Source: Rhizobium sp. Q54
GTDB lineage: Bacteria > Pseudomonadota > Alphaproteobacteria > UBA828
Assembly: GCA_945892755.1 (NCBI GenBank)
Contig: CAMDDO010000025.1
Span: forward strand, 1-38,504
DNA length: 38,504 nucleotides
Reading direction: 5' to 3'
Part shown: positions 3,143 through 37,756 of the stretch, piece by piece
Position numbering within the stretch: position 1 is the stretch's first letter
Layout of the letters: the number at the start of each line of letters is the position of its first letter
Translations under genes and position numbers: made by a program
Notes under the pieces: model-generated
The model's input: the letters and a program-made list of their open reading frames with translations, nothing else
Databases searched by the model: none
Told to the model about the DNA's origin: nothing

Positions 3143-3955
3143 TTAGTTGCTCGAGAAGATCCTGACCGCGAGCCGCGGCCGCTTGTTGATCGGCAGGATC
3201 GAGGCCTCGGTCTTGACCTCGATGGCGCTGCCGTCGGGCCGGGCGAGTTGCCGGGCGTAGATCGGCAGGCCGACCGTGTTAACGGTCTCGATCAGGTTGG
3301 CCGGCGCGCCATGGGTCACGAACGTGTCGATCGTGCCGAGCGGAAAGGCGACGCCGTCGCCGGCCGGCACCAGCGTCTCGGTCGCCCCGGTCGAGAGCGT
3401 GACCGTGGCGTTGTACTCCTCGAACACGATGCCGGCGAAGGGGAAGCGCCGGCGGGTGTCCTCGCGCAGCGGCTGCGCGCCGGTCGAGGTGAAGTACTTG
3501 TAGGCGTCCTCGACCTTGGCGTGGCCGATCAGCTTGTCGAAGAACTCCGGGCTCACCATGGCGAGAACGCCCGACATGGATTCGCCCTTGAGCTCGGTCT
3601 CCACTTTCCGCAGCACCTCGCGCACCTTGGCTTGAACATTCGTACCGGCGGTGCCGAGCACGAAGTCGGTCGCCTGCTGGGCCAGGCCGAACTCGGTGAA
3701 GTAGTTGTAGAGCGTGGTTCCGGCGCCGTCCTTGACGATGCCGCGGAGCGCGTTGACCTCCATGTATTCGCGCGTCTGGGCGTGCTTCACCCGCATGCGG
3801 GTGAGCTTGCGCTCCATGGTGGTGGCGAGCGGGTCGGCGGCGTCCGCGACCCCGAAGGCGCGCACGCCCTGGATGTCCTGGGGCGTGATGACATCGTCGT
3901 GCGGGATCCAGGGCAAGGTGAACGAGCGCATCGAGCGCGTGTCGCGGTTGGCGAA
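3143..3955 (-). pseudogene. Phage major capsid protein E, 5'-truncated
   Basis: From about 3955 to the stop at 3143 the frame encodes some 270 residues typical of the major capsid protein E family (lambda gpE-like). They include RSFTLPWIPHDDVITPQDIQ, QGVRAFG, a conserved centre (GTTLYNYFTEFG), SPEFFDKLIGH, EDTRRRFPFAGIVFEEYN, and the C-terminal PLYARQ-type segment (here GLPIYARQLARPDG). Full-length members carry about 70-80 further N-terminal residues; these are missing. The open frame continues upstream to 4084 with unrelated, basic sequence, so any protein made would start abnormally. No scaffold, protease, portal or terminase gene is present. I read it as a prophage remnant broken at the junction near 3955-3980. 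Confidence 0.8.
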
Positions 3956-4321
3956 GCGACGCGAGAACAACCCGGATCCACTACTGCGCCGTTCCGATGC
4001 TCGTGCATCGCAACGGCGTACCGAGTGGTCCAAAATCCCTCGTGATTTCAGCGTCACGGTTCGACGCCAGAGCCTCTCGCCCATCCGAGCAAGTTTCCAA
4101 AAGTACGGATATTTCGGGCCGAATAGTTACGTAAAGTCAGCGGCTTAAGAATCCGTACTGATTTGGCGCAGTCCAGAGCTTTGGAGAAAACGGCCCGGAG
4201 AGAGGCAAATCCGGGCTCCGGCGCGAGTGGCTCGGTCATGAGCATTGCGGCGTGAACCGCGCGGACACTGGGGTTTCCCGAGGCGACGAACGGCGTCGGA
4301 GAAATTGCGACGCAGGGAAAC
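3956..4321. other. Junction region between capsid fragment and tRNA-Ser
   Basis: About 365 bases without a supportable gene. Open frames exist on both strands but none gives recognisable protein. The sequence is less GC-biased than its neighbours around 4100-4150 (several AT-rich stretches), consistent with foreign or junction DNA. I see no integrase and no clear duplicate of the tRNA 3' end. Confidence 0.5.
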
Positions 4322-4411
4322 TGGCGGAGGGGGTGGGATTCGAACCCACGGTACGCTTACACGTACAACGGTTTTCGAGACCGCCCCGATCGACCACTCT
4401 GGCACCCCTCC
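4322..4411 (-). tRNA. tRNA-Ser (anticodon CGA)
   Basis: Read on the minus strand it folds as a class II tRNA. The acceptor stem GGAGGGG (from 4411) pairs with CCCCTCC. The anticodon loop is CTCGAAA with anticodon CGA (codon UCG). The long variable arm is typical of serine tRNAs, the T arm is GTGGG-TTCGAAT-CCCAC, and the 3' CCA is encoded. It borders the prophage remnant; serine tRNAs are common integration sites. Confidence 0.95.
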
Positions 4412-4530
4412 GCACCGACGGGCCCCCGGTCTTGGGGAACGCCTCTTTACCTCACCGACCGAACCTGCCGCAAGCGCGGCGGTCGGCCATCGAGCATGAC
4501 ACGTGGCAGAACTTGGGGCGCGGCCGATCA

Positions 4531-4761
4531 GCAAGCCGCCGCGGCGACCGGCTTGCCGGGCTTCTCGGCGTCTCGCGGCGCACTGTCTACCGAGACATCG
4601 AGGACCTCTCGCGGGCCGGCGTGCCGATCGAAGGGGAGGCTGGGGTCGGTTTTCGCTTGAGCACGGGTTATCGAGTTCCCCCGCTGATGTTCTCGCCCGA
4701 CGAAATCCAAGCCCTCGTTCTCGGCGCTCGGCCGATTCAACTTGGTCGGAACATGCTCTAG
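4531..4761 (+). pseudogene. Fragment of a WYL/YafY-type HTH regulator
   Basis: About 75 codons match the N-terminal winged-helix part of the YafY-like WYL family. The helix-turn-helix reads DRLAGLLGVSRRTVYRDIEDL, and then the linker has VPIEGEAGVGF, VPPLMFSPDEIQALVLGAR. Full proteins are about 230 residues. Here the frame ends at a TAG at 4761, right after the linker, and the WYL domain is absent. The 5' end is also disturbed: the ATG at about 4497 is in another frame. It overlaps the end of the permease gene on the other strand by a few bases. I interpret it as a dead remnant rather than a functional short regulator. Confidence 0.65.
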
Positions 4762-6842
4762 CTCCCGCGCCGCTCTCGGAGTGTGAGCACCGCGCCGAGT
4801 ATCACGACACCGAACACGATGTCGCGCACAGCGATCGGCACTTGCGAGCCCGTCACCAGCGTGCCGAGCGCGGTCAAGAGCAGCGCACCGCCGAGCATGC
4901 CCATATAGTGGCCGCGTCCGCCGGTCGCCAGCGTGCCGCCGACCAAGACCACCGCGATGGTCGGCAGCAGCAGGGGCAAACCCATCGAGAGAAAGGAGAT
5001 GCCGCTGAACCCGGTCATCAGCACACCGGCAAGCGCCGAGCAGAAGCCGCTTAGCATATAAACCGCCAAGAGCGTCATATCGACCCGCGTGCCGGAAAGC
5101 TTGGCGACGCGCTGCGAGTTACCGACCGCGAAAATCCGCCGGCCGAAGCTCGTGCGATGCAGGACGACCACCGAGACGATCGCGATCAAGATGATCGACC
5201 AGGTGACCGGCGCGAAGCCGAGCCAACGCTCGTTGAACAACCATTGCAGAGCGGGCGGCGATTTGCCGGTCGGGATGCCGCCGGTATAGAGCAGAGCCAA
5301 GCCCTGCATGATGCCGTTGGTTGCGAGCGTCACCACGATCGAGGGCATGCCGAACAAGACGATGCCGAGCCCGTTGACGAGCCCAACCACCAAGCCGAAG
5401 CCGAGCACCATGGGGATCGCCCAATAGGCCGGCCCATCGGCGCCATTCGCGACCGCCGCGAGCACGACGCCCGAAAAGGCGAGCGTATGCGGCACGGAGA
5501 GATCGAGCCCGCCGGTCAGCACGACGGCGCCTTGGCCGAGCGCAAGCACCGTGTAGAACAGCGCCAGCGTCAAGAGCGCGTTGAAATAGTGCGGGCTCCA
5601 CGATTCACCGCCGATCACCGCCAACACCAGAATGTAGACCACGACGAACAAGACCCAGGCCGGCAGCATGAGCCGAAGCGTCTCCCAATTGATCGTCGTC
5701 CATTGACGCAGCGCCGACCCTTTCAACTCATCGTTGGGGCGCAGGGCCCAATCCGGCTGCAGTTTGGCGCGGTGTTCCCTGGCTCCCGGCATGAAGACCG
5801 GCAGGCTGCGATTGCTGAGGCCGGTCAGTTTGAGGCGGGCGACACGAATATATTCGGCGAACGCCGAATCGCGCCCGACGGTCGCACCGATCACGGCCAG
5901 GATCAGCACGATGCTCTCGACAATCGGTGAATAGCTCGAATTGACATCGAGCACCAAAAGCACGTTGACGATCAGGGTCAATGTGAAAGCGGCGAACGCG
6001 GTGCCAAGGCAGCCGCCGCTGCCGCCGCCAATGCGCGTGCCGCCGAGAATGGTCGCGGCAAAGATCAGCAGCAACATGTCCTTGCCGACGAGGGCATCGC
6101 CCGAGCCGGTTTGCGCGGTCAGGAACACGCCGCCCGCGCCATAGAAGACGCCCGACAGCGTATAGCCATAGAATTTGGTCCAGTCGGCCGGAATGCCGTT
6201 CGAGAAGGCGGCGTCTTCGTTTGAGCCGACCGCGTAGAGCGCGGTGCCGAAGCGCGTGCGCTTGATCAGCAGCCAAACGCCCAACGCCAACAAAATGAAG
6301 AGGAGGGCGGCCGGAAAGCCGCCCGGAATCACGTCGCCAATGAAGAAGGAAGAAAAGCCCGCCGGCACATAGCCGCCCGGGTCGGGCATGATCAAAAGGT
6401 TGAGCCCCAGGATGATGAACATCGAGGCGAGCGTCACCACCACCGGCTGGAGGCGCATGAAGGCGATGAAGAAGCCGTTGAACGCCCCGACGCAGGCGCC
6501 GATGCCGAGACCGGCGAACACCATGCCGATCTGACTGCCCGGCGAATCGCCCGTGTAGGAGGCCATCACGACATTGACCAGCGAGAGCGCGGCGCCGGCC
6601 GACAGATCGAAGCCGCCAAGCAGGAAAACGATGGTCTGTCCCATGGCCGCCAGAATGAGGGGGCCGGTGTTCGCGGTCAGGAAGCTGATCTCGAAATAGC
6701 TGACAGGGCCTTCGTTCAACGTATCGAGAAAGACAAACATCGCGACAAAGCTGAGCACCGCGACCACGAGTCCGCGCCGACGTCCGATTTGGCGAACCCA
6801 ATCGGATCTGGGCAGATGGAGTGTCTCGCTCAGGCTAATCAT
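4758..6842 (-). CDS. ABC importer permease, tandem fusion of two ribose-type permeases
   Basis: The protein has 694 residues and contains two complete BPD_transp_2 (RbsC/branched-chain-type) permease units, roughly residues 25-335 and 380-690, joined by a cytoplasmic linker rich in charged residues (GAREHRAKLQPDW). Each half carries the family's loop: LLGGFDLSAGAALSLVN in the first and LTGGLDLSVPHTLAFSG in the second, plus about 8-10 membrane helices. Most relatives are single units of about 320 residues that dimerise; here the dimer is covalently linked. The start (ATG at 6842, or GTG at 6845) overlaps the stop of the ATPase gene, so the two are translationally coupled. It should form an inner-membrane channel for the solute brought by the 8472-9611 binding protein. 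The substrate cannot be read from the sequence. Confidence 0.9.
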   Translation of the reverse strand: MISLSETLHLPRSDWVRQIGRRRGLVVAVLSFVAMFVFLDTLNEGPVSYFEISFLTANTGPLILAAMGQTIVFLLGGFDLSAGAALSLVNVVMASYTGDSPGSQIGMVFAGLGIGACVGAFNGFFIAFMRLQPVVVTLASMFIILGLNLLIMPDPGGYVPAGFSSFFIGDVIPGGFPAALLFILLALGVWLLIKRTRFGTALYAVGSNEDAAFSNGIPADWTKFYGYTLSGVFYGAGGVFLTAQTGSGDALVGKDMLLLIFAATILGGTRIGGGSGGCLGTAFAAFTLTLIVNVLLVLDVNSSYSPIVESIVLILAVIGATVGRDSAFAEYIRVARLKLTGLSNRSLPVFMPGAREHRAKLQPDWALRPNDELKGSALRQWTTINWETLRLMLPAWVLFVVVYILVLAVIGGESWSPHYFNALLTLALFYTVLALGQGAVVLTGGLDLSVPHTLAFSGVVLAAVANGADGPAYWAIPMVLGFGLVVGLVNGLGIVLFGMPSIVVTLATNGIMQGLALLYTGGIPTGKSPPALQWLFNERWLGFAPVTWSIILIAIVSVVVLHRTSFGRRIFAVGNSQRVAKLSGTRVDMTLLAVYMLSGFCSALAGVLMTGFSGISFLSMGLPLLLPTIAVVLVGGTLATGGRGHYMGMLGGALLLTALGTLVTGSQVPIAVRDIVFGVVILGAVLTLRERRGS

Positions 6843-8377
6843 CACGCCGCCCCGGCTGTTGCCGCACTGCCGCCAAGCGCGGGCGTCATGATCGTTTCTT
6901 CGCTGATCGCATCGCCCTTCAATTCGGCGACGATGCGACCGCGATACATAACGAGCACACGGTCACACAGGTTGACCAGCTCGGGCACCTCGGTCGAATA
7001 GAACAGGACGGCATGACCTTGTGCCGCGAGCTCGCGGATCAGCACGTATATTTCATGTTTGGTGCCGATATCGACGCCGCGCGTGGGATCGAACATCAAG
7101 AGCACCTTGCTATCGGCGAGCAGCCATTTGGCGATCGCGATTTTCTGCTGATTGCCGCCGCTGAACGAGGAGGCCGGCTTGTAAAGCGCGCGCGGGTGCA
7201 CTTGAAGGCGTGCGAACACTCTATCGACCGCTTTCCGCTCCGCGCCTCGATCGACCCAAAGAAAACGCGAGAACCGGTCGATCACCGGCAGTGAGGCGTT
7301 GTCCTTGCCCGAGAGCTTGAGGAACAGGCCCTCGCTTTTGCGATCTTCCGGCACCAAGGAAATACCGACGCCCGCATTCACCGCATCGCTCGGGTTTGCG
7401 AGCGTCACCGCCCGGCCACCGAGCATGATCTTGCCTGCCTTGAGGCCGATCACGCCGAATAGCGCCTCGAACAACTCAAGTTGCCCCATGCCCTGCAAGC
7501 CGGCAATGCCGAGCACTTCGCCCGGCCAGAGCACGAAAGACGTATCGCGCAGCATGGCGCCGGCGCTGAGGCCATCACCGGCAAGCGCTGGCGCTGCGGC
7601 ATCGGCTTTCCGGTTATCCACGCGCGGCGGATAGATCGCGCCGAGCGAACGGCCGATGATCAGCCGCACCACGTCGGTATCGCTCACTTCATCGATCTTG
7701 TAGGAGCCGACATGTTTGCCATTGCGCAAGACCGTGACGCTCTCGCAGAACCGGCGCACTTCGGCCATGCGATGCGAGATGAAGACTACGGTGATGCCCT
7801 CGGCCTTGAGTTGCGTGATCAACCGGCCGAGCCAGTCGACATCCGAAGCCGAGAGCGTTGAGGTTGGCTCATCAAGCAACAGCACGCGCGGCTTGCGGCC
7901 GATCGCCTTGGCGATCTCGACTTTCTGGCGTGTCGGCAGGTCGAGGTCGCTGATCAGGCGATCGGGACTGATGGCCTCGAGGCCGAGCTTGGCCAAGTGC
8001 GCCTCGACCAGTCGACGCGCGTGGCGTTTGCGAATTTGGCTGAAGGCGACCGGCTCGTAGGGAAGCAGAAGGTTTTGCGTGACCGTCAAATCGCGGATCA
8101 AGGTGAGTTCCTGGAAGGCGGTTTGAATGCCATGACGATAGGCCGCCTTGGGCCGGCCGAACGGCACCGTGTCGCCAAACACCTTTACGGTACCTTGATC
8201 CGGTCTGATCAAACCGCTCAACACCTTGACGAGGGTTGATTTGCCGGCGCCGTTCTCGCCGATCAAGGCGCGCACTTCGGCGCGGCCGATCGAGAGGCTG
8301 ACGTCGTCGAGCGCGACCGTGGCCTCGAAGCGCTTCGAGAGCCCTTGGACGTCGATCGCGGGCGCGCTGGCATCCAT
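6842..8377 (-). CDS. Ribose-type ABC importer ATPase with two nucleotide-binding domains
   Basis: The protein has 511 residues, the usual size for RbsA/MglA/XylG-type ATPases with two NBDs in one chain. The first NBD has Walker A GENGAGKS (about 40-47), signature-like LDLPTRQKVEIAKA and Walker B VLLLDEPTS. The second has the degenerate Walker A typical of this family (GIAGLQGMGQLEL), the signature FSGGNQQKIAIAK and FDPTRGVDIGTK. It drives import through the fused permease encoded immediately downstream. It lies 94 bases after the binding-protein gene, separated from it by a strong hairpin, so its expression is probably lower than that of the binding protein. The ATG at 8377 gives a normal N-terminus. 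The transported substrate is not deducible; the family takes up pentoses, hexoses, autoinducer-2 and other small polar molecules. Confidence 0.93.
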   Translation of the reverse strand: MDASAPAIDVQGLSKRFEATVALDDVSLSIGRAEVRALIGENGAGKSTLVKVLSGLIRPDQGTVKVFGDTVPFGRPKAAYRHGIQTAFQELTLIRDLTVTQNLLLPYEPVAFSQIRKRHARRLVEAHLAKLGLEAISPDRLISDLDLPTRQKVEIAKAIGRKPRVLLLDEPTSTLSASDVDWLGRLITQLKAEGITVVFISHRMAEVRRFCESVTVLRNGKHVGSYKIDEVSDTDVVRLIIGRSLGAIYPPRVDNRKADAAAPALAGDGLSAGAMLRDTSFVLWPGEVLGIAGLQGMGQLELFEALFGVIGLKAGKIMLGGRAVTLANPSDAVNAGVGISLVPEDRKSEGLFLKLSGKDNASLPVIDRFSRFLWVDRGAERKAVDRVFARLQVHPRALYKPASSFSGGNQQKIAIAKWLLADSKVLLMFDPTRGVDIGTKHEIYVLIRELAAQGHAVLFYSTEVPELVNLCDRVLVMYRGRIVAELKGDAISEETIMTPALGGSAATAGAA

Positions 8378-8408
8378 GGCGGACGGTTCCTGACGCCGGA
8401 GAAGAAAG

Positions 8409-8435
8409 GGGCCGCGATGCGGTCGCGGCCCCTCC
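8409..8435 (-). terminator. Intercistronic hairpin between binding-protein and ATPase genes
   Basis: A perfect 11-bp inverted repeat (AGGGGCCGCGA / TCGCGGCCCCT) with a 5-base loop lies between the stop of the binding-protein gene and the ATPase start. On the minus strand it is followed by a pyrimidine run with few consecutive Ts. It may act as a partial terminator or as an mRNA 3'-end stabiliser that raises binding-protein levels. Confidence 0.65.
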
Positions 8436-8471
8436 GTCTTCTAGAGCACGATGCTTACACGACGCCCCGTC

Positions 8472-9611
8472 TCAATAGTCGGGCTCGCCAAGCAGTGCCG
8501 AGCTGAAGCCGAGTTCCGGCGTGTTCGGCGACCAGAAATCGATCGCATAGTCCGGCGGCACGATGCCGGGCGGGATCGTGTTGCAGCCGCCGGCGAAATC
8601 GGCCGCGCTGCCCGAATCGCACAGCTTCACGTTGTCTTTGTTCACGTGAACGATCGCGTCATTGTAGAAGATCGGGTTGCTCGCCGGCTTCTTGCCATCG
8701 AGCACGTCGACCGCGACCTTGAGCAAGTAAGCGACACCCCAGAGGCCCGAGCCCGACGACAGGCCCTCGCGACCGAGCGCGCCTTCGATCTTCGAATCAG
8801 GCGGAAGCATTTGCAGCCGGCCGCCATTGGATGATTCGCCCGAGCACGGGATGATCGGGTTCTTCGGGTAATAGCCGTCTTCGACCTGCATCAACGAAAC
8901 CGTGTAGCAGCCGGTCTGCGTCACAATACCGTCGATGTCCTCCCACTTGTGGGTGGCGAGGAACTCTTTCAGCTTGATGCGAGCCTGTGACTGGTCCCAC
9001 ATGCCGACCAATTCGCCGATCACCTTGATATCGGGATGTTTGGCGACCGTCTCCTTGAAGCCCTGGTGATGTTCTTCGTTGTACGACACGCCGGGCACGC
9101 CGGTGATGGCGACGATATTTCCCTTGCCGCCGATCTTGTCGATCACCCACTCGGTGCGCTGCGCACCAAGCTTCACGCCATCGACCTTGACGACATAGGC
9201 GCATGGCTCGGTCACGCCGTTGATGACCACCACGACCACGCCTTTTTCGCAGGCGTTCTTGATCACGCCATTGAGCGCGGTCGGCGAGATCGGGAAGGCG
9301 AGGATGGCATCCGCGCCGGCCTGGATCATCGCGTTCATCTGCTGGATCTGTTTCTGCGCGTTGGCGCCGGCCGCCTGGGTGCGCAGCTCGACGCGATCCT
9401 TATAGGCGGCGGTCTTCGACATGGCGGTGACGGCGTTCTTGGCTTCGGTCTGCCACGCATTGCCGACATAGCTCATGCTGTAATAGATGAGGTACTTGCC
9501 GTCCTTGGTCTTGGCGGCGGCGTCATCGGCGCCGAAGCCGAGAGTAGCGGCCGCTGTCAGGCCGACGCCAAGCGCCAAGCCCTTCAGCCAACCCAGTTTC
9601 CGTGCGCGCAT
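8472..9611 (-). CDS. Periplasmic substrate-binding protein of a ribose-type ABC importer
   Basis: The protein has 379 residues. The N-terminus is a Sec signal peptide (basic MRARKLGWLKG, a hydrophobic core, and cleavage probably near AAA-KT at about 33). The mature part has the type I periplasmic-binding fold of the Peripla_BP_4 (RbsB-like) family: YLIYYSMSYVGNAWQTEAKNA, IQQMNAMIQAGADAILAFP, GVVVVVINGV, GNIVAITGVPG and a C-terminal lobe with WEDIDGIVTQTG. It is longer than RbsB (about 270 mature residues), with an extended C-terminus holding two Cys (KLCDSG, GGCNTIPPG) that may form a disulfide. An AGGGGGA motif precedes the ATG. It is the first gene of the transporter operon and should capture the solute in the periplasm. 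The ligand is unknown; its proximity to an amidase-like cluster suggests a non-sugar compound, by inference only. Confidence 0.9.
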   Translation of the reverse strand: MRARKLGWLKGLALGVGLTAAATLGFGADDAAAKTKDGKYLIYYSMSYVGNAWQTEAKNAVTAMSKTAAYKDRVELRTQAAGANAQKQIQQMNAMIQAGADAILAFPISPTALNGVIKNACEKGVVVVVINGVTEPCAYVVKVDGVKLGAQRTEWVIDKIGGKGNIVAITGVPGVSYNEEHHQGFKETVAKHPDIKVIGELVGMWDQSQARIKLKEFLATHKWEDIDGIVTQTGCYTVSLMQVEDGYYPKNPIIPCSGESSNGGRLQMLPPDSKIEGALGREGLSSGSGLWGVAYLLKVAVDVLDGKKPASNPIFYNDAIVHVNKDNVKLCDSGSAADFAGGCNTIPPGIVPPDYAIDFWSPNTPELGFSSALLGEPDY

Positions 9612-9672
9612 TGTGTTCCATCCCCCTGATCCGAGTGCCCTGAGGGCACCGCCGCAGCCCAGCGCGGTCGCA

Positions 9673-9685
9673 CCCCCTTAGGGGG
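9673..9685. promoter_or_regulatory. Short inverted repeat upstream of the transporter operon
   Basis: CCCCC-TTA-GGGGG lies about 62-74 bases upstream of the binding-protein start, inside the 294-base gap (9612-9905) that separates it from the divergent cupin gene. It could be an operator half-site pair or a small hairpin in the leader. I see no convincing -35/-10 pair and nothing else in the gap. Confidence 0.25.
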
Positions 9686-9905
9686 AAATACTCACCTTCG
9701 GAAACCGCGCGAGTCAATGTGGAATGCGGGTGGGCGGAACCGCAAGGGCGGCCGCCGCGGTCGCTGCCGAGGCGGTGCTTCGACGCGTGTTTCTTCAATC
9801 AATTGGTGGGAGCAGTGGCCGATTGGCCCACGCCACCCCTCGTGGTAGTGTCTTGCCGCATTCGAAGGAATCGATCGGCCATCCGGATTGTTGGGGGATC
9901 GGACC

Positions 9906-10490
9906 ATGGCGGCAAGCACGATTGAGCGCTATTTGCTCCCGGAAGTTGGCGGAAATCCGAACAACGCCGTGCTTCCCTTGCTTCTCTACAGAGCGGCCGT
10001 TCGCATCGACGAGCGCGATCCCGAAGGCTCGGTCGAGAAGACCTTTTGGTCCAACAATTGGGGCGATGGGTTTCGCGGCGATACTTTTCCCTTTCACCAC
10101 TATCATTCATTCGCCCATGAGGTCGTCGGCTGCGCGCGGGGCCAGGCAACGCTTCAGTTCGGCGGTCCGACCGGCCCGGTGGTCGACGTCGAGGCAGGCG
10201 ACGCGGTACTGATTCCAGCGGGCGTCGTTCATTGCCGACTCGACGATCGGCCGGGTTATGTGTCGATCGGCGCCTACCCGCCGGGACAGAAGGCCGACAT
10301 TTGCGTCCTATCGGAACGCGAAGCGGCCATCGCGCGCGCTCGCCCTGACGCGGAGGGCCTGGAGCTCAAGGTCGTCGGGACGGCGGAGCTGCCCGCGATC
10401 AAAGCCTCGATCGCGCGTACCGTGCTGCCCGCGACCGATCCGATTGCCGGAAAGAACGGCGCGGTTCAAACGCACTGGCTGAAGAGCTAA
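9906..10490 (+). CDS. YjlB-like cupin protein
   Basis: I took the ATG at 9906 (GGGGGA about seven bases upstream) rather than an in-frame start at 9888; this gives 194 residues. The layout matches the YjlB family of single-domain cupins. An N-terminal NPNNAVLPLLLYR leads to the first cupin motif FHHYHSFAHEVVG (His ligands and Glu), then GQATLQFGG, DAVLIPAGVVH (second motif His), the GAYPPGQ segment, and a C-terminal tail with ATDPIAGKNGAV. The spacing of the three His and one Glu predicts a mononuclear metal site. No activity is established for the family that I can name. It is transcribed divergently from the transporter operon and converges with the DMFase-like genes, so it may belong to the same catabolic cluster. 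Confidence 0.85.
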   Translation: MAASTIERYLLPEVGGNPNNAVLPLLLYRAAVRIDERDPEGSVEKTFWSNNWGDGFRGDTFPFHHYHSFAHEVVGCARGQATLQFGGPTGPVVDVEAGDAVLIPAGVVHCRLDDRPGYVSIGAYPPGQKADICVLSEREAAIARARPDAEGLELKVVGTAELPAIKASIARTVLPATDPIAGKNGAVQTHWLKS

Positions 10491-10518
10491 GTGTCGCGCG
10501 CTCGAATCGTTCGGTCGC

Positions 10519-12753
10519 TCAGAATTTTCGATCCGAAGCGAATGCTCTCAAAACGTTCTCCGTAATGCGCGAGACGTTATTGCGATAGCGGTCGTGCGAG
10601 AGCGAGCCGCACCACGCGATCGAGCCCACCGAAAACACCGCGCCGCCATTCGGCGTTTCGTAGAACACGAGATCGGCATGGTTGCGCGGGTTGTCGCGAC
10701 CATTGAGCGTCGGCAGCGTGACCACCAGCTCTTCGAGCACAAGCAAATAGTTCTCCGTGTGGTTTTCCGAGGTCGCGAGCACGAGCGCGTGCGGCGGCGT
10801 GCCGAGCGCAACATCGGCGCAATCGATCTCGATGCCGGCCGCGCCGCCGCCCTGACAACCGAAATCGCCGATCAGCTCGTCCTTGACGCCCTCGAAAATG
10901 AAACGTGCGCGGGCACCGCGGCTCGCCCTAGTGCGGCGATAGTATGAAGAGGCATCGAAGCCCTGCGAAACAAAACCGACGCCCGTGATCGATTGAGGCG
11001 CCATGCCATATTGACGGAACAGACCGCCCTCGAGTCCATCAAAGCTTTGCCAATGTTCGCCGGGCTTGGCATCCCAGGCGCGAATAGCGGGGCCGGGGCG
11101 ACGCACCTCGATCACGCCCGGCAGGGTCGGGTGATAGGCGATGCGCCAATAAAAGCCATTGCCGCCCAGATACATCAGGCGGCCGCCCTGGTGGGTATAG
11201 TCCTTCACGGCCTGCCACATCGGGATTGAATAATATTCCGGGTGCGAGCCGGTCAGCACCGCACGATAGGGCTTTAACAAAGCGATGCCCTCGGCGTGCA
11301 AATCATCATCGGTGATGACGTCGTAGCGGAAGCCCTTGGCTTCGAGCCAATCGGTCAAATGCAAATCGGCGTTGAAGGCCCAGAGCGAGGAACCCGGCGA
11401 GCCATTGTAGAGCGTGACCTTGGGGCGGAAATTGAGCACCGGGCGGCGCCAGGACGAATAGCAAATGCCGCTGCCGTCGCTGTGATTGTCATAAAGCGAT
11501 GAGCCATATTCGCGGTGCTTGTTGAGGAAGATGTCCTGCGGCGTCCACGAGGTCAGCCGACCCATCATCAGCTCGGCCCATCGCGCGTCGGTGGTCATGC
11601 GCTGATTCGCATAGGCCGCGTAGGAGGCGGTCGGTGCCAGGAACGCTATTTTCGCTGTCGCCGTGCCTTTGGGTGGCCGGACATAAAACGGCACATAATC
11701 CTCTTCCGCCCCGGCGCGCAGCCGCGCGGCATAGATGCCGCTCTTCAGGCCCGATGGAATCGTCAGGGTGAAATCGCATTCCCAGCCGGCGTCATAAAGA
11801 TCGTCATCGTGGAAATGGATGGCGCCATAGTGTTCGGGATGTTGGCTCGGCGTGACACCTTGGCCGCCCGGCCAGGAATGCCCGGTCATGGCGCGCGCCG
11901 GCAGATTGATCAGCGTGCCGTTGAGGCCATGGCGGCCGCGATCGACGAAGTGTGTGCTCGCCATATCGTGGCTGAAGTCCCACGCCGCCACGATGCTGGG
12001 CACCATGCCACCGTCGCGTATGCGTGCGGCTGCGGCTTGCAGGGCCGCGGGTGTGAACCCCTTATCGGCGATGACCGGGGCTTCGAGCTTGCCATTGTAA
12101 TGACGGTTGGTCAGGGTTTTGCCGCGGCTATTGCTTAGCCCTGCCGCGATCGTAAGGGGCACGGCCGGCAGCGCGATGGCGCCATGCTTGATTTTCGTCG
12201 CGGCCCGACCGCGATCATGGAGCTTCGGCAGCGCTTCAAGCGGTTCCTGATAAACCGTCATTTCGCCGGTCTGACCGTCGATCGTAGCGCCGACGCGATA
12301 CCAGCGTCGCGCCAGGAGGCGTGTACCGGTCGAGATGGTTTTGCCGCGCACGCCGTCGCCGAAGCGCAACGTCGCCGCGCCGCTCTGATCAATGATTAGC
12401 TCGAAGCCGCGCCGATCGTGCCATTTGGCGAGTAGCACTTGTTCGCCCTTGTCGGGCGTCGTCGGCCAGATCAGCGCTTGAACCGATAATGTCGTCAGGC
12501 CTTCCAGCACCGCGTGAGACGGCACGCAGCCATAGGAGCCGACGGCAATGGTTTGTTTCCGGCCCTTGTAGGTCTTATTCGCGGGCGTCTTGATGACGCG
12601 CTCTTTGTAGCCGGGTCCCTTGGGATTCAGATCGCCGCAGATCAGCCTCACAATGTCGGCGCGATAGCGCGACACACCATCGCAACTCACGAAGAAATTG
12701 ATGATTTCACCCGGCGCCGCACTGAGCCGATCCGCATAGGCCGTGATCTTCAT
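10519..12753 (-). CDS. N,N-dimethylformamidase-like large (beta) subunit
   Basis: The protein has 744 residues, close to the roughly 760 of the characterised Paracoccus enzyme. The N-terminal part (1-90) and a LamG-like jelly roll (about 90-230) precede the catalytic core from about 365 on, which has a glutamine-amidotransferase-like fold. DMFase uses a mononuclear iron bound by two Tyr and one Glu (Tyr399, Tyr440 and Glu521 in Paracoccus). Plausible equivalents here are Tyr381 in YAAYANQ, Tyr421 in SSLYDNHSDG and Glu506 in SHPEYYS, whose His504 also matches the conserved HxE. The family hydrolyses small N-substituted amides. Its start overlaps the small-subunit gene by four bases (ATGA), which fits a stoichiometric complex. 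There is no signal peptide, so it is cytoplasmic. The true substrate is unknown; many homologues outside methylotrophs are untested. Confidence 0.85.
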   Translation of the reverse strand: MKITAYADRLSAAPGEIINFFVSCDGVSRYRADIVRLICGDLNPKGPGYKERVIKTPANKTYKGRKQTIAVGSYGCVPSHAVLEGLTTLSVQALIWPTTPDKGEQVLLAKWHDRRGFELIIDQSGAATLRFGDGVRGKTISTGTRLLARRWYRVGATIDGQTGEMTVYQEPLEALPKLHDRGRAATKIKHGAIALPAVPLTIAAGLSNSRGKTLTNRHYNGKLEAPVIADKGFTPAALQAAAARIRDGGMVPSIVAAWDFSHDMASTHFVDRGRHGLNGTLINLPARAMTGHSWPGGQGVTPSQHPEHYGAIHFHDDDLYDAGWECDFTLTIPSGLKSGIYAARLRAGAEEDYVPFYVRPPKGTATAKIAFLAPTASYAAYANQRMTTDARWAELMMGRLTSWTPQDIFLNKHREYGSSLYDNHSDGSGICYSSWRRPVLNFRPKVTLYNGSPGSSLWAFNADLHLTDWLEAKGFRYDVITDDDLHAEGIALLKPYRAVLTGSHPEYYSIPMWQAVKDYTHQGGRLMYLGGNGFYWRIAYHPTLPGVIEVRRPGPAIRAWDAKPGEHWQSFDGLEGGLFRQYGMAPQSITGVGFVSQGFDASSYYRRTRASRGARARFIFEGVKDELIGDFGCQGGGAAGIEIDCADVALGTPPHALVLATSENHTENYLLVLEELVVTLPTLNGRDNPRNHADLVFYETPNGGAVFSVGSIAWCGSLSHDRYRNNVSRITENVLRAFASDRKF

Positions 12754-13061
12754 GGCAATTTCTCCGGCAGGCTGCGACCGGTGTAATGCTTCCAGCGCAT
12801 TCGGAAGACCGCGCGTTCGGCCTCTTCAAGCGAGCGAAACACCTGATTCTTGTGCAGCTTGAGCGGCTTGCCGGGCCGGCCGTCCATTTGCGCCAACATC
12901 CATTTGCGGTGCGGCTCGAGACAGACCAACACGTGTTTGCCCTCGGGCGGAGCGCCACGGAACAAGCCGAGAATTTGCTGAAGCTCGGCGCTATGCGCGC
13001 CGATCGGTTTGGCCATGAATTCGGCGGCGAGATCGAGCCGCTTCGGATCGACGCAAATCAT
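12750..13061 (-). CDS. DMFase-like small subunit
   Basis: The start is ATG at 13061, with GGGAGG eight bases upstream; a longer in-frame start exists (13157) but adds unconvincing sequence. This gives 103 residues. Conserved-looking elements are AKPIGAHSAELQQIL, EGKHVLVCLEPHRKW and the C-terminal AVFRMRWKHYTGRSL. The gene overlaps the large-subunit start by four bases, the expected order and coupling for an alpha/beta dimethylformamidase-type complex, and the sequence pattern is consistent with the family's small subunit. It is somewhat shorter than the roughly 130 residues of the Paracoccus subunit. A clear paralogue lies at 29947-30261 without any large subunit beside it. The role is presumably structural, completing the active heterotetramer; this is inferred. 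Confidence 0.75.
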   Translation of the reverse strand: MICVDPKRLDLAAEFMAKPIGAHSAELQQILGLFRGAPPEGKHVLVCLEPHRKWMLAQMDGRPGKPLKLHKNQVFRSLEEAERAVFRMRWKHYTGRSLPEKLP

Positions 13062-13183
13062 GCGCGGCCTCCCAAAGCGGCGTTGCTCGCCGCGCGTTTT
13101 ATTGATCAAGTAGGTTCCATTAGAACGAACGCGAGCGCGCCGGTCAATCGGCCCCAACGCGCGCGAGGTTAGGGAGGCGGCTC
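13062..13183. promoter_or_regulatory. Divergent promoter region between the DMFase-like operon and the CocE hydrolase
   Basis: A 122-base gap separates two divergently transcribed gene starts, so promoters for both must lie here or within the upstream genes. The centre (13095-13125) is noticeably AT-richer than the flanks (TTTTATTGATCAAGTAGG), including the palindrome TTGATCAA. No individual box can be assigned confidently. Confidence 0.35.
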
Positions 13184-14905
13184 ATGGCGGTCGAACTTGG
13201 CGAGAATTCGGGCGTCGTCTATGAGGAAGACGTTCCCGTGCGCATGCGCGATGGCGTCACGCTGCGCTGCAATGTGTTCCGCCCGGCCGATGGACGACCG
13301 GCGCCGGCATTGATCCAGCGCCAGCCCTATAACAAGAATGCCGCGCAATGTTACGTCTATGCGCACCCCGCGTGGTATGCGCGCCACGGCTATGTGACGG
13401 TCGTCGAGGATTCGCGCGGCCGCTACGCCTCGGAGGGCAAGTTCTATCCACTGCGCCACGACGCAACCGATGGCTATGACACGATCGAATGGGCCGCAGC
13501 CCAACCCTGGTGCAATGGCAAGGTCGCGAGTTTCGGCTTCTCGATTCCCGGCATCAATCAGCTTTTGGCCGCGAGCGAAAAGCCGCCTCATCTCGTCACT
13601 GCGATGCCGGGCTTCTACCCGCAAGGCATGTATGAAGGCTTCACCCATGTCGGCGGCACGTTTGGCCTGGCCGCGGTGATGGACTGGGCCATGCTGCTCT
13701 CGACCGAAGAGGCGCGCCGCGCCGGCGACCCCTCGCTGCTGGCTAAAATTCGCGCCGCCGCGTCATGCGTCGGGCGCTGGAACCCGACGCTCTCTTTGCG
13801 TGAGATTCCGTTTCTGCTCGATCCGCCGCTGATGCCGTTCCTCACCGATTATTTCAACCACCCGCTGCACGATGCCTATTGGCAGGATATCGAACTCAGC
13901 CCCCGTGCCGATCGCATCGACATTCCGTGCCTCCATATCTCGGGCTGGTATGACAGCTTCATCACCCAGACGATCGAGGCCTATGAACGCTTCGTCGCGC
14001 TCGGCCGTGCCGATCATCGGTTGTTCGTCGGGCCCTGGTATCACATTCCCTGGACCCAGCAGGTCGGCTGTATTGACTATGGTGAAGACGCCAAGAATGT
14101 GGTCGATGAGTTGCAGCTCGCTTGGCTCGATGCGCAATTGAAGGGCAAGCGCGAGGCGCTTGAGCGCATTCCCAAAGTGCGCGTTTTCATCACCGGCGCC
14201 AATCGCTGGCGCGATGCCGATCGTTGGCCGCTGCCGGGCATGCAACATACGAGCCTCTATCTGCATAGCCAAGGCCGCGCCAATTCGCTCTCGGGCAATG
14301 GCGGTCTGTCATGGCAAGCGCCCGGGCAAGAGCCACCGGACTTCTATGTCTATGGTCCCGAGGCGCCGGTGCAAAGCGCAGGCGGTCATTCCTGCTGCAT
14401 GCCGATGAACACGCCGATGGGACCCGCCGATCAGGCCGGCGTCGAGCTTCGCAACGACGTGCTGGTCTATACCTCCGCGCCACTCGAGCAGCCCTTGTTG
14501 GTCGCCGGCAAAGTGAACGCGATCATTCATGCCGCGACCACCGCGCGCGATACCGATTGGGTGGTGAAGTTATGCGACGTTTCACCCGATGGGCGTTCGA
14601 TCAACCTTCAGGAGGGCGTGGTGCGTGCGCGCTATCGCGATGGCGCGACCGCCGATCGGCCGATCGAACCGAACCGCGTTTACGAATATCGCATCGCGGT
14701 CGGCGTGGTGTGCCACCAATTCAAAGCGGGCCATCGCCTGCGCGTACAGATCGCCAGCAGCAATTTCCCGGCCTGGGACCGCAACCCGAACACCGGCGAT
14801 CCGCTGGGCGGCGAGGCGCCGTTCAATTGGGTGGTCGCCAACCAGACGATCTTCCACGATGCGACGCGGCCGTCACGCCTCGACATGCCTGTGGTGCGCG
14901 GATAG
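13184..14905 (+). CDS. CocE/NonD family serine hydrolase
   Basis: The protein has 573 residues, the usual size for the CocE/NonD (X-Pro dipeptidyl-peptidase S15-like) family. An alpha/beta-hydrolase domain carries the nucleophile elbow GFSIPG (Ser120), the acid Asp257 in GWYDSF and the base His287 in GPWYH. EDSRGRYASEG (75-85) is the family signature. The C-terminal third (from about 340) is the jelly-roll domain with QIASSNFPAWDRNPNTG. GGGAGG precedes the ATG. Family members hydrolyse esters or amides such as cocaine, glutaryl-7-ACA and alpha-amino acid esters. There is no signal peptide. It is divergent from the DMFase-like pair, so the two hydrolases may act successively on one imported compound; this is inference. 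Confidence 0.92.
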   Translation: MAVELGENSGVVYEEDVPVRMRDGVTLRCNVFRPADGRPAPALIQRQPYNKNAAQCYVYAHPAWYARHGYVTVVEDSRGRYASEGKFYPLRHDATDGYDTIEWAAAQPWCNGKVASFGFSIPGINQLLAASEKPPHLVTAMPGFYPQGMYEGFTHVGGTFGLAAVMDWAMLLSTEEARRAGDPSLLAKIRAAASCVGRWNPTLSLREIPFLLDPPLMPFLTDYFNHPLHDAYWQDIELSPRADRIDIPCLHISGWYDSFITQTIEAYERFVALGRADHRLFVGPWYHIPWTQQVGCIDYGEDAKNVVDELQLAWLDAQLKGKREALERIPKVRVFITGANRWRDADRWPLPGMQHTSLYLHSQGRANSLSGNGGLSWQAPGQEPPDFYVYGPEAPVQSAGGHSCCMPMNTPMGPADQAGVELRNDVLVYTSAPLEQPLLVAGKVNAIIHAATTARDTDWVVKLCDVSPDGRSINLQEGVVRARYRDGATADRPIEPNRVYEYRIAVGVVCHQFKAGHRLRVQIASSNFPAWDRNPNTGDPLGGEAPFNWVVANQTIFHDATRPSRLDMPVVRG

Positions 14906-36240: not shown

Positions 36241-36990
36241 CTAACCCATCGCGCGGCGCTGCAGGCGCTCCGGCGCGTGATCGCGCAGGAATTCGCTCTC
36301 TTCCAACACGCGGAGATGCTCGTCGGTGATCCGCTCAAGCGCCTTTTTGTCACCCTTGATCAGGGCGTCGAGAGTGCGCTGGTGGAAATGCGCGGTGACG
36401 CTAACGTCGACCGTCCGCGTAAAGAAATCGCGCAGAAGCAACGCCAGCTGTTCGAGGATTTGATGCTGATAAAAGGCGAGCAGTTCGCTGCGCGCCGCGC
36501 GGCCGAGATTGTAGTGGAACAGGTTCTCGTAATACATGCGACGCATGCCGGCCGGCACGCCTTGCTCCTTGAGCTTCTCGATGGCATAACGTAACGCCGC
36601 ATGGTCTTCAGCGGTCGCCCGTTCCGCCGCCAGCATGATGATCTGCATTTCGATCGGCCGGCGCGCTTCGACCAGTTCCTTCAGCGAGGCCTCGCGCCAG
36701 CCAGAGGCCCGGCGCATGATCAACGATTCCGGAATGTTGTCGCTGACCACCGTGAGCCCGCCGCTTGCGCCGCGCTGCGCGACCAAGACGCCGGCGCGGC
36801 TCAATACTTTGATGGCTTCGCCGATGGTCGGCTTACTGACTTGCATGGTCTGGGCAAGCGCTTCGACCAGCGGCAAACGATCGCCCGGCTTGAACGCGCC
36901 GGTGCGAATCGCGAAAGTTATTTGATCGACGACCTCCTCATATGCGCGGGGCCCCGAGATTGGATAGAAATTCCACATTTTGGGCGGCAC
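36241..36990 (-). CDS. GntR-family (FadR subgroup) transcriptional regulator
   Basis: GTG at 36990, or ATG at 36978, gives 249 or 245 residues. Residues about 15-85 are the winged helix: IRTGAFKPGDRLPLVEALAQ, QVSKPTIGEAIKVLSRAGVLVAQRGASGG. Residues about 100-240 are an all-helical FCD ligand domain, with His residues in LFHYNLGR and TAHFHQRTLDAL that probably bind a metal. These regulators respond to small organic acids or amines and usually repress adjacent genes. It is divergent from the RidA gene across a 343-base gap, so RidA is a likely target. No operator is clear. Confidence 0.9.
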   Translation of the reverse strand: MPPKMWNFYPISGPRAYEEVVDQITFAIRTGAFKPGDRLPLVEALAQTMQVSKPTIGEAIKVLSRAGVLVAQRGASGGLTVVSDNIPESLIMRRASGWREASLKELVEARRPIEMQIIMLAAERATAEDHAALRYAIEKLKEQGVPAGMRRMYYENLFHYNLGRAARSELLAFYQHQILEQLALLLRDFFTRTVDVSVTAHFHQRTLDALIKGDKKALERITDEHLRVLEESEFLRDHAPERLQRRAMG

Positions 36991-37333
36991 CTCTTGTTCC
37001 TTTCCGCGTCACGGCTCGGGGGGCGGGCCGAGATTCGTGCCGAGTTCAATCATGATTAGGGTTGATTTACCTGAACGACAGCCGGCTTGTTCCGCAGGCC
37101 ACACCGTCGCTTGGCTTCGAAGCGGGCGCGACGATTGACCATTTAATTTAGCGAGGTTTTCGAGGAGTGCAACCTTCCGGCATCATGTTGACAGAGCTAA
37201 AATGCGGCCACGGCCAGAGTCGGGCGCATTGCCGCAGATTGCGGGAAGCTGCTCCCGCGCCGGCGAGCCTGCTTGGCTGTTGGTCATCGGCCGCCGCGGG
37301 CGGTCTATCATCCGAATCGCAAGGAGAATCCCA
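36991..37333. promoter_or_regulatory. Divergent regulatory gap between GntR regulator and RidA gene
   Basis: A 343-base non-coding gap. It contains TTGACC (37136) and TTGACA (37188), followed by AT-rich stretches (ATTTAATTTAG, CTAAAATG), so promoter elements are plausible, but spacing to a -10 is poor. AAGGAG at 37321 is the RidA ribosome-binding site. No palindrome of the FadR type (TGGT...ACCA) is obvious. Confidence 0.4.
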
Positions 37334-37756
37334 TTGAAGATCTCGCCGATCCACCCGATGGAGCCCAAGCCGGAGCACAACATGCCGTTTGTGCCGGCGT
37401 TCGCGGTCGAGGGAGGCAAGACGCTTTATCTCGCCGGCTGCGGACCGATTCCGCTCTATCACAAGCACCCGCATGATCCGGCCGAAGAAGCGGCGTGGAT
37501 GGCCGGCGGCTTCCCGCGCCAGATCGAACGCACCATGGCGAATCTCAAACTGGTGCTCGAGGCTGCCGGCGCGAGCTGGAACAATGTGGTCAAGATGACG
37601 GTCTATCTGACCGACATGTCCCGTCAGAACGAACTCAACAAAGTGATCCACCAGTATTTCGGCAAGGAGAACCCGCCACCGCGCACGCTGATCGGCGTCG
37701 CTTGTTTATCGCACGAAGACATGCTGATCGAGATCGATGTGACGGCGGTCGTGTAG
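37334..37756 (+). CDS. RidA/YjgF-family deaminase-like protein, TTG start
   Basis: The TTG at 37334 with a full AAGGAG seven bases upstream gives 140 residues; no in-frame ATG serves as well. RidA fold: AFAVEGGKTLYLAGCGP, QIERTMANLKLVLEAAGASWNNVVKMTVYLTDM, and PPPRTLIGVACLSHEDMLIEID with the conserved Arg that binds the substrate carboxylate. RidA hydrolyses reactive enamine/imine intermediates; subgroup members act in specific catabolic pathways. It is longer than the classic 128-residue form because of an insert (PLYHKHPHDPAEEAAW). It is convergent with the agmatine deiminase gene (9 bases between stops) and divergent from the FadR-type regulator, suggesting a small amine-catabolism locus. 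Confidence 0.88.
   Translation: MKISPIHPMEPKPEHNMPFVPAFAVEGGKTLYLAGCGPIPLYHKHPHDPAEEAAWMAGGFPRQIERTMANLKLVLEAAGASWNNVVKMTVYLTDMSRQNELNKVIHQYFGKENPPPRTLIGVACLSHEDMLIEIDVTAVV

Follow-up and report, generated by a model that had tools for sequence, protein, structure and literature searches.

The 38,504-nt contig CAMDDO010000025.1 (assembly GCA_945892755.1) of Rhizobium sp. Q54, a bacterium represented solely by environmental DNA, is analyzed here as a whole (the window), with a focus on a gene cluster at positions 4758-14905. In this cluster, an ATP-binding cassette (ABC) importer of the CUT2 type and a CocE/NonD hydrolase constitute a well-supported conserved module, of which a two-subunit iron amidase of the N,N-dimethylformamidase (DMFase) type is a plausible third member. 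We propose, with a probability of roughly 0.6, that the three act on one compound in a catabolic pathway of import followed by cytoplasmic hydrolysis. A shared pathway of this kind, with a cupin included, had been suggested in a preliminary description of the DNA, and domain and NCBIfam model matches located all of the genes it named within the cluster:

4758..6845, minus strand: fused tandem CUT2-type ABC permease, 695 amino acids (two BPD_transp_2 domains, E = 2.7e-63)
6842..8377, minus strand: CUT2-type double ABC ATPase, 511 amino acids (ABC_tran twice)
8472..9611, minus strand: periplasmic binding protein of the importer (Peripla_BP_4, E = 4.9e-44)
9906..10490, plus strand: cupin, a neighbor only, outside the module (Cupin_2; start at ATG 9906)
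10519..12753, minus strand: large subunit of the DMFase-type iron amidase, 744 amino acids (PF20254; 6lvb_A, E = 1.5e-160)
12750..13061, minus strand: DMFase-type small subunit, ~103 amino acids (profile match to 6lvb_B, E = 2.3e-14)
13184..14905, plus strand: CocE/NonD hydrolase, 573 amino acids (TIGR00976, 449 bits)

Linkage between the importer and CocE was assessed across 22 genomes of the order, with orthologs at least 69% (binding protein) or at least 59% (CocE) identical. A binding-protein ortholog was present in 14 genomes and a CocE ortholog in 16, and both occurred in 13. The two genes lie in one cluster in 12 of these 13 genomes, across three genera and several gene orders, so that their co-location is more than chance. 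The exception (G008) has the two on separate contigs, in each case close to a contig end. Seven genomes of the neighboring genus (g6) carry the binding protein and CocE genes in divergent orientation with ~200 bp between them. Among the g5 genomes, two (G007 and G006) have CocE directly next to the permease and a third (G009) has it 4 kb away, while in the window's own genus (g1; the window and the sister species G013) the amidase sits between CocE and the binding protein. Permease relatives that are 68%–82% identical occupy the same position in g1, g5, and g6. That the importer and CocE have stayed together while gene orders were rearranged suggests selection for the pair.

The G013 cluster comprises CocE, the small subunit, the large subunit, the binding protein, the ATPase, and the permease, and its amidase, 77% identical to that of the window, is likewise placed between CocE and the importer. 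The cupin is absent from this syntenic cluster, and its orthologs in 11 other genomes are located elsewhere, so we rejected it as a member of the module, contrary to the preliminary description. Its earlier label of YjlB-like also found no confirmation, as Cupin_2 was the sole match and no NCBIfam model matched.

The CocE gene is full length, and its product scored 449 bits against the TIGR00976 cut-off of 66.3. Its homology to cocaine esterase (3i2g, E = 5e-102) spans the full length, and it retains the same catalytic triad (S120, D257, and H287) and oxyanion tyrosine (Y49), differing from that enzyme in being tied to an importer. Neither hydrolase has a signal peptide, as read from the N-termini, whereas the N-terminus of the binding protein is signal-peptide-like; this difference fits uptake followed by hydrolysis in the cytoplasm.

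The large subunit of the amidase matches PF20254 (E = 2.4e-96), and its alignment covers residues 6-757 of 6lvb_A, i.e., full-length homology to the Paracoccus DMFase (parDMFase). In parDMFase, Y399, Y440, and E521 are the iron ligands and H519 is catalytic (PMC7686228). These residues align with Y381, Y421, E506, and H504 of the window enzyme, and the four columns, which make up a 2-Tyr-1-Glu site plus the histidine, are invariant in an alignment of 13 family members. A separate small subunit is required for activity in parDMFase. A single-sequence search with the candidate small subunit of the window gave no recognizable relative, but a family profile (A3) recovered it as a relative of 6lvb_B. 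Its start is most likely ATG 13061 rather than TTG 13157, judging by a conserved ATG and the alignment with G013, and its stop overlaps the start of the large subunit by four bases (ATGA). The window enzyme differs from parDMFase in that Phe693, described as restricting parDMFase to small amides (PMC7686228), aligns with a valine, and in having an importer and CocE as neighbors. It is only ~40%–45% identical to characterized-type relatives, and it shares a separate long branch with only its G013 ortholog in a tree of 41 large subunits. Full-length homology also links the large subunit to a member of the same family, N-acetyl-(R)-beta-phenylalanine acylase (8huy, 8i59, and 8i5a; E = 1e-153), which indicates that DMFase-family enzymes also cut larger N-acyl amino acids; a search of the available literature for a paper on this acylase found none.

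The importer has the complete CUT2 ribose-type set of binding protein, double ATPase, and BPD_transp_2 permease, as in the RbsABC, AraFGH, and LsrABCD types. It departs from these in several respects. Its permease has two BPD_transp_2 domains, and the two halves are 33% identical when compared with each other (E = 1.7e-20), which identifies the protein as a genuine tandem fusion. The best NCBIfam models for the ATPase were AraG, XylG, and RbsA, each below its cut-off, and scores of the importer against all named sugar equivalog models of NCBIfam were far below cut-off. The binding protein contains six cysteines that are invariant in all homologs compared, and an AlphaFold2 model of it (pTM 0.72) shows the CUT2 fold and gives no ligand. 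At the ribose-contact positions of 2ioy, which we take from established knowledge of the ribose-binding protein, the Asp-Arg pair, a conserved Arg, and an Asn are replaced by other residues in both the window protein and the family profile. The loss of these anchor residues suggests that the imported ligand is likely not a sugar.

Genes adjoining related importers bear on the nature of this ligand. Operons of the same importer architecture in Rhizobium, Agrobacterium, Phyllobacterium, and Caballeronia (binding protein 44%–50% identical) are linked to genes for GntR, short-chain dehydrogenase/reductase (SDR), hydroxyacyl-CoA dehydrogenase, BKACE, and SMP-30 proteins, and two genomes of the same class as the window carry this cluster as well. 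RidA-family proteins accompany the importer-CocE pair in g5 and g6, with an additional luciferase-like monooxygenase and amidase in g5, and the genes near a paralogous importer in the window's own genome include those for a cupin, an SDR, and a 5-oxoprolinase subunit. Such neighbors fit a nitrogen-containing substrate better than a plain sugar, although no single ligand follows from them. Among the RidA-family proteins encoded next to the importer and CocE in g6, one has three consecutive RidA-type domains (L101:11233-12426).

The pairing of an importer with an amidase, described previously as unexpected for a ribose-type importer, proved to be frequent in the order. Importer permeases, detected using queries that lack the small-subunit domain, were found within 5 kb of 16 out of 27 DMFase-type genes in the order, compared with 3 out of 40 control regions (Fisher p = 6e-6). 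The same was true for 7 out of 13 DMFase-type genes on named plasmids (p = 9e-4 versus controls). All p-values against these controls serve only as a guide, because the loci are mutually related and the controls derive from genomes outside the order. The importers concerned are of the oligopeptide, polyamine, polar amino acid, and branched-chain types, with CUT2 in the window, and CocE genes likewise lie no more than 5 kb from DMFase-type genes belonging to several clades. On Agrobacterium pAt, a Ti-type plasmid of Rhizobium AB2/73, and Aminobacter pMDW2, a branched-chain permease carries the small subunit as a C-terminal domain and lies directly upstream of a DMFase-type large subunit. Rhizobial plasmid loci with this fusion include L129:7284-8939 (CP048549.1), L249:7001-8656, and L251:6995-8653. 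Ensifer adhaerens pB encodes a full-length homolog of this fusion (57% identity), and a genome of the class (G022) a relative (50%) with one internal stop. In that branch of the family, the fusion strongly indicates that importer and amidase cooperate; the window has no such fusion. Together, the recurrent importer neighbors and the plasmid fusion indicate that an importer plus an amidase is a recurring design rather than an oddity.

DMFase-type enzymes have a reputation chiefly as degraders of solvents that use an unusual iron site, and little is known of the compounds they act on in nature. A dedicated importer beside such an enzyme provides a handle on its substrate, as the ligand of the binding protein leads to both enzymes. 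The fusion on rhizobial plasmids also turns a physical coupling of uptake to amide hydrolysis into something that can be tested, and the wider value of the finding lies in the repeated association of DMFase-type amidases with importers. By extension, DMFase-type amidases could be general hydrolytic partners of diverse ABC importers, some docked to the permease via the small subunit and cutting the substrate at entry, with the window representing a CUT2 version extended by CocE; we regard this generalization as speculative and rather unlikely. A search of the available literature on importer-DMFase clusters and BKACE importer operons returned nothing useful. We did not count other apparent long frames containing a small-subunit domain as fusions; the longest-scoring frame that we inspected is a GC-rich shadow frame. 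Separately, a DMFase small-subunit-like gene on Halalkalicoccus jeotgali plasmid 2 (L139:8413-8955) is annotated as an inner-membrane translocator, a name probably inherited from the fused permease.

In the pathway that we favor, the CUT2-type importer, having lost the sugar contacts, would bring in a small polar, probably nitrogen-containing compound. The cytoplasmic CocE/NonD serine hydrolase, as the constant partner of the importer, would cut an ester or amide bond, and the two-subunit iron amidase, added in g1, would cut an N-substituted amide bond, either in that compound or in the product of CocE. A single substrate, this order of steps, and the chemical class are what we infer from gene content, catalytic residues, and genomic context. 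Several observations weigh against such a pathway. The tight trio of importer, CocE, and amidase occurs only in the two g1 species, g6 retains the importer and CocE without the amidase, and in the window, CocE and the amidase pair are transcribed divergently and thus have no common operon. Moreover, the importer operons of the rhizobia and Caballeronia have other downstream enzymes, with BKACE and SMP-30 genes in place of CocE or a DMFase-type amidase. Proximity of importers to DMFase-type genes is also weak elsewhere in the class (10 out of 60 versus 3 out of 40, p = 0.15) and was not seen on named proteobacterial, mostly gammaproteobacterial, contigs (0 out of 14, p = 1). Of the shared pathway suggested originally, the importer-CocE module, the intact hydrolases without export signals, the lost ribose contacts, and the repeated proximity of amidases to importers are retained, but without the cupin and with a narrow distribution of the trio. 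Likewise, the search for co-occurrence of the fused permease, the DMFase-like large subunit, and CocE bore out the importer-CocE part in 12 genomes, and the full set in two species.

The narrow distribution of the trio leaves some room for the importer and CocE alone as the functional unit, into which the amidase pair landed in one genus while serving another substrate. We consider this possible but doubtful. It agrees with the g6 genomes, where the two genes lie close together without an amidase, with the presence of further DMFase-type genes at unrelated places in the window's own genome, and with the separate clade of the window amidase, which differs from the g5 clade near CocE. However, G013 has kept the amidase between CocE and the importer, and DMFase-type genes of several clades, all other than that of the window, are found near CocE in g4 and g5. 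For example, three loci in g5 (L087, L096, and L105) have DMFase-type genes of a different clade 7–11 kb from the importer-linked CocE, and five others (L080, L084, L085, L094, and L095) have them together with a second CocE paralog (42%–45%) and a spermidine/putrescine-type importer. With CocE neighbors drawn from several DMFase clades, the combination has been assembled more than once. A quite unlikely alternative to the proposed pathway is uptake of an ordinary sugar or polyol, with the hydrolases releasing it from acylated forms or modifying such forms. The CUT2 fold and family are consistent with this, as are the nearest solved relatives by sequence, which include annotated carbohydrate transporters, and the SMP-30/gluconolactonase genes that adjoin the rhizobial homologs. 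The altered ribose-contact positions and the low scores against every sugar equivalog model argue otherwise, and the cluster contains no sugar kinase or isomerase. Degradation of dimethylformamide (DMF) or a similar small formamide, as family membership and the conserved iron site might imply, is very improbable. A different copy in the same genome (G000:C32) groups with the Paracoccus pAMI5 enzyme, apart from the window enzyme, and the pAMI5 locus itself has not been linked to DMF use (PMC4543880). The valine in place of Phe693 also speaks against a small formamide, and CocE or a binding protein would be needless for DMF.

DMFase-type large subunits are strongly expanded in the order, with at least one match in each of the 22 genomes and eleven matching stretches in one (G016). 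Two DMFase-type genes of the window's own genome (L089 in G000:C75 and L091 in G000:C1) lie within ~7 kb of genes resembling N-methylglutamate synthase subunits and a glutamine-synthetase-like ligase. This arrangement would suit a released amine that is channeled into a methylamine-type route. L091 is additionally accompanied by a CUT2 importer. One clade of large subunits (L083, L087:18558-18848, L096, and L105) has no recognizable small subunit upstream and instead has a DUF1330 protein, a possible replacement partner. A DMFase-type pair 52% identical to that of the window was found in a metagenome-assembled genome (MAG) labeled Klebsiella pneumoniae (L037, CAMCBY010000286.1). The pair resembles those of uncultured proteobacterial MAGs (likewise 52% to the window), and the label is probably wrong.

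A scan for promoters and terminators found nothing exceeding shuffled sequence. Elsewhere in the window, a gene for phage major capsid protein E (3143-4084) lies near a tRNA-Ser gene (4322-4411), beside an apparently truncated HTH_11 regulator that ends at 4761, and positions 3143-4761 may be the remains of a prophage at the tRNA gene. Approximately 22 kb from the cluster, a GntR/FCD regulator gene (36241-36990, minus strand) is divergent from a RidA-family gene (37202-37756, plus strand). A distant tie between this RidA gene and the cluster is conceivable, because the importer has RidA genes for neighbors in g5 and g6.

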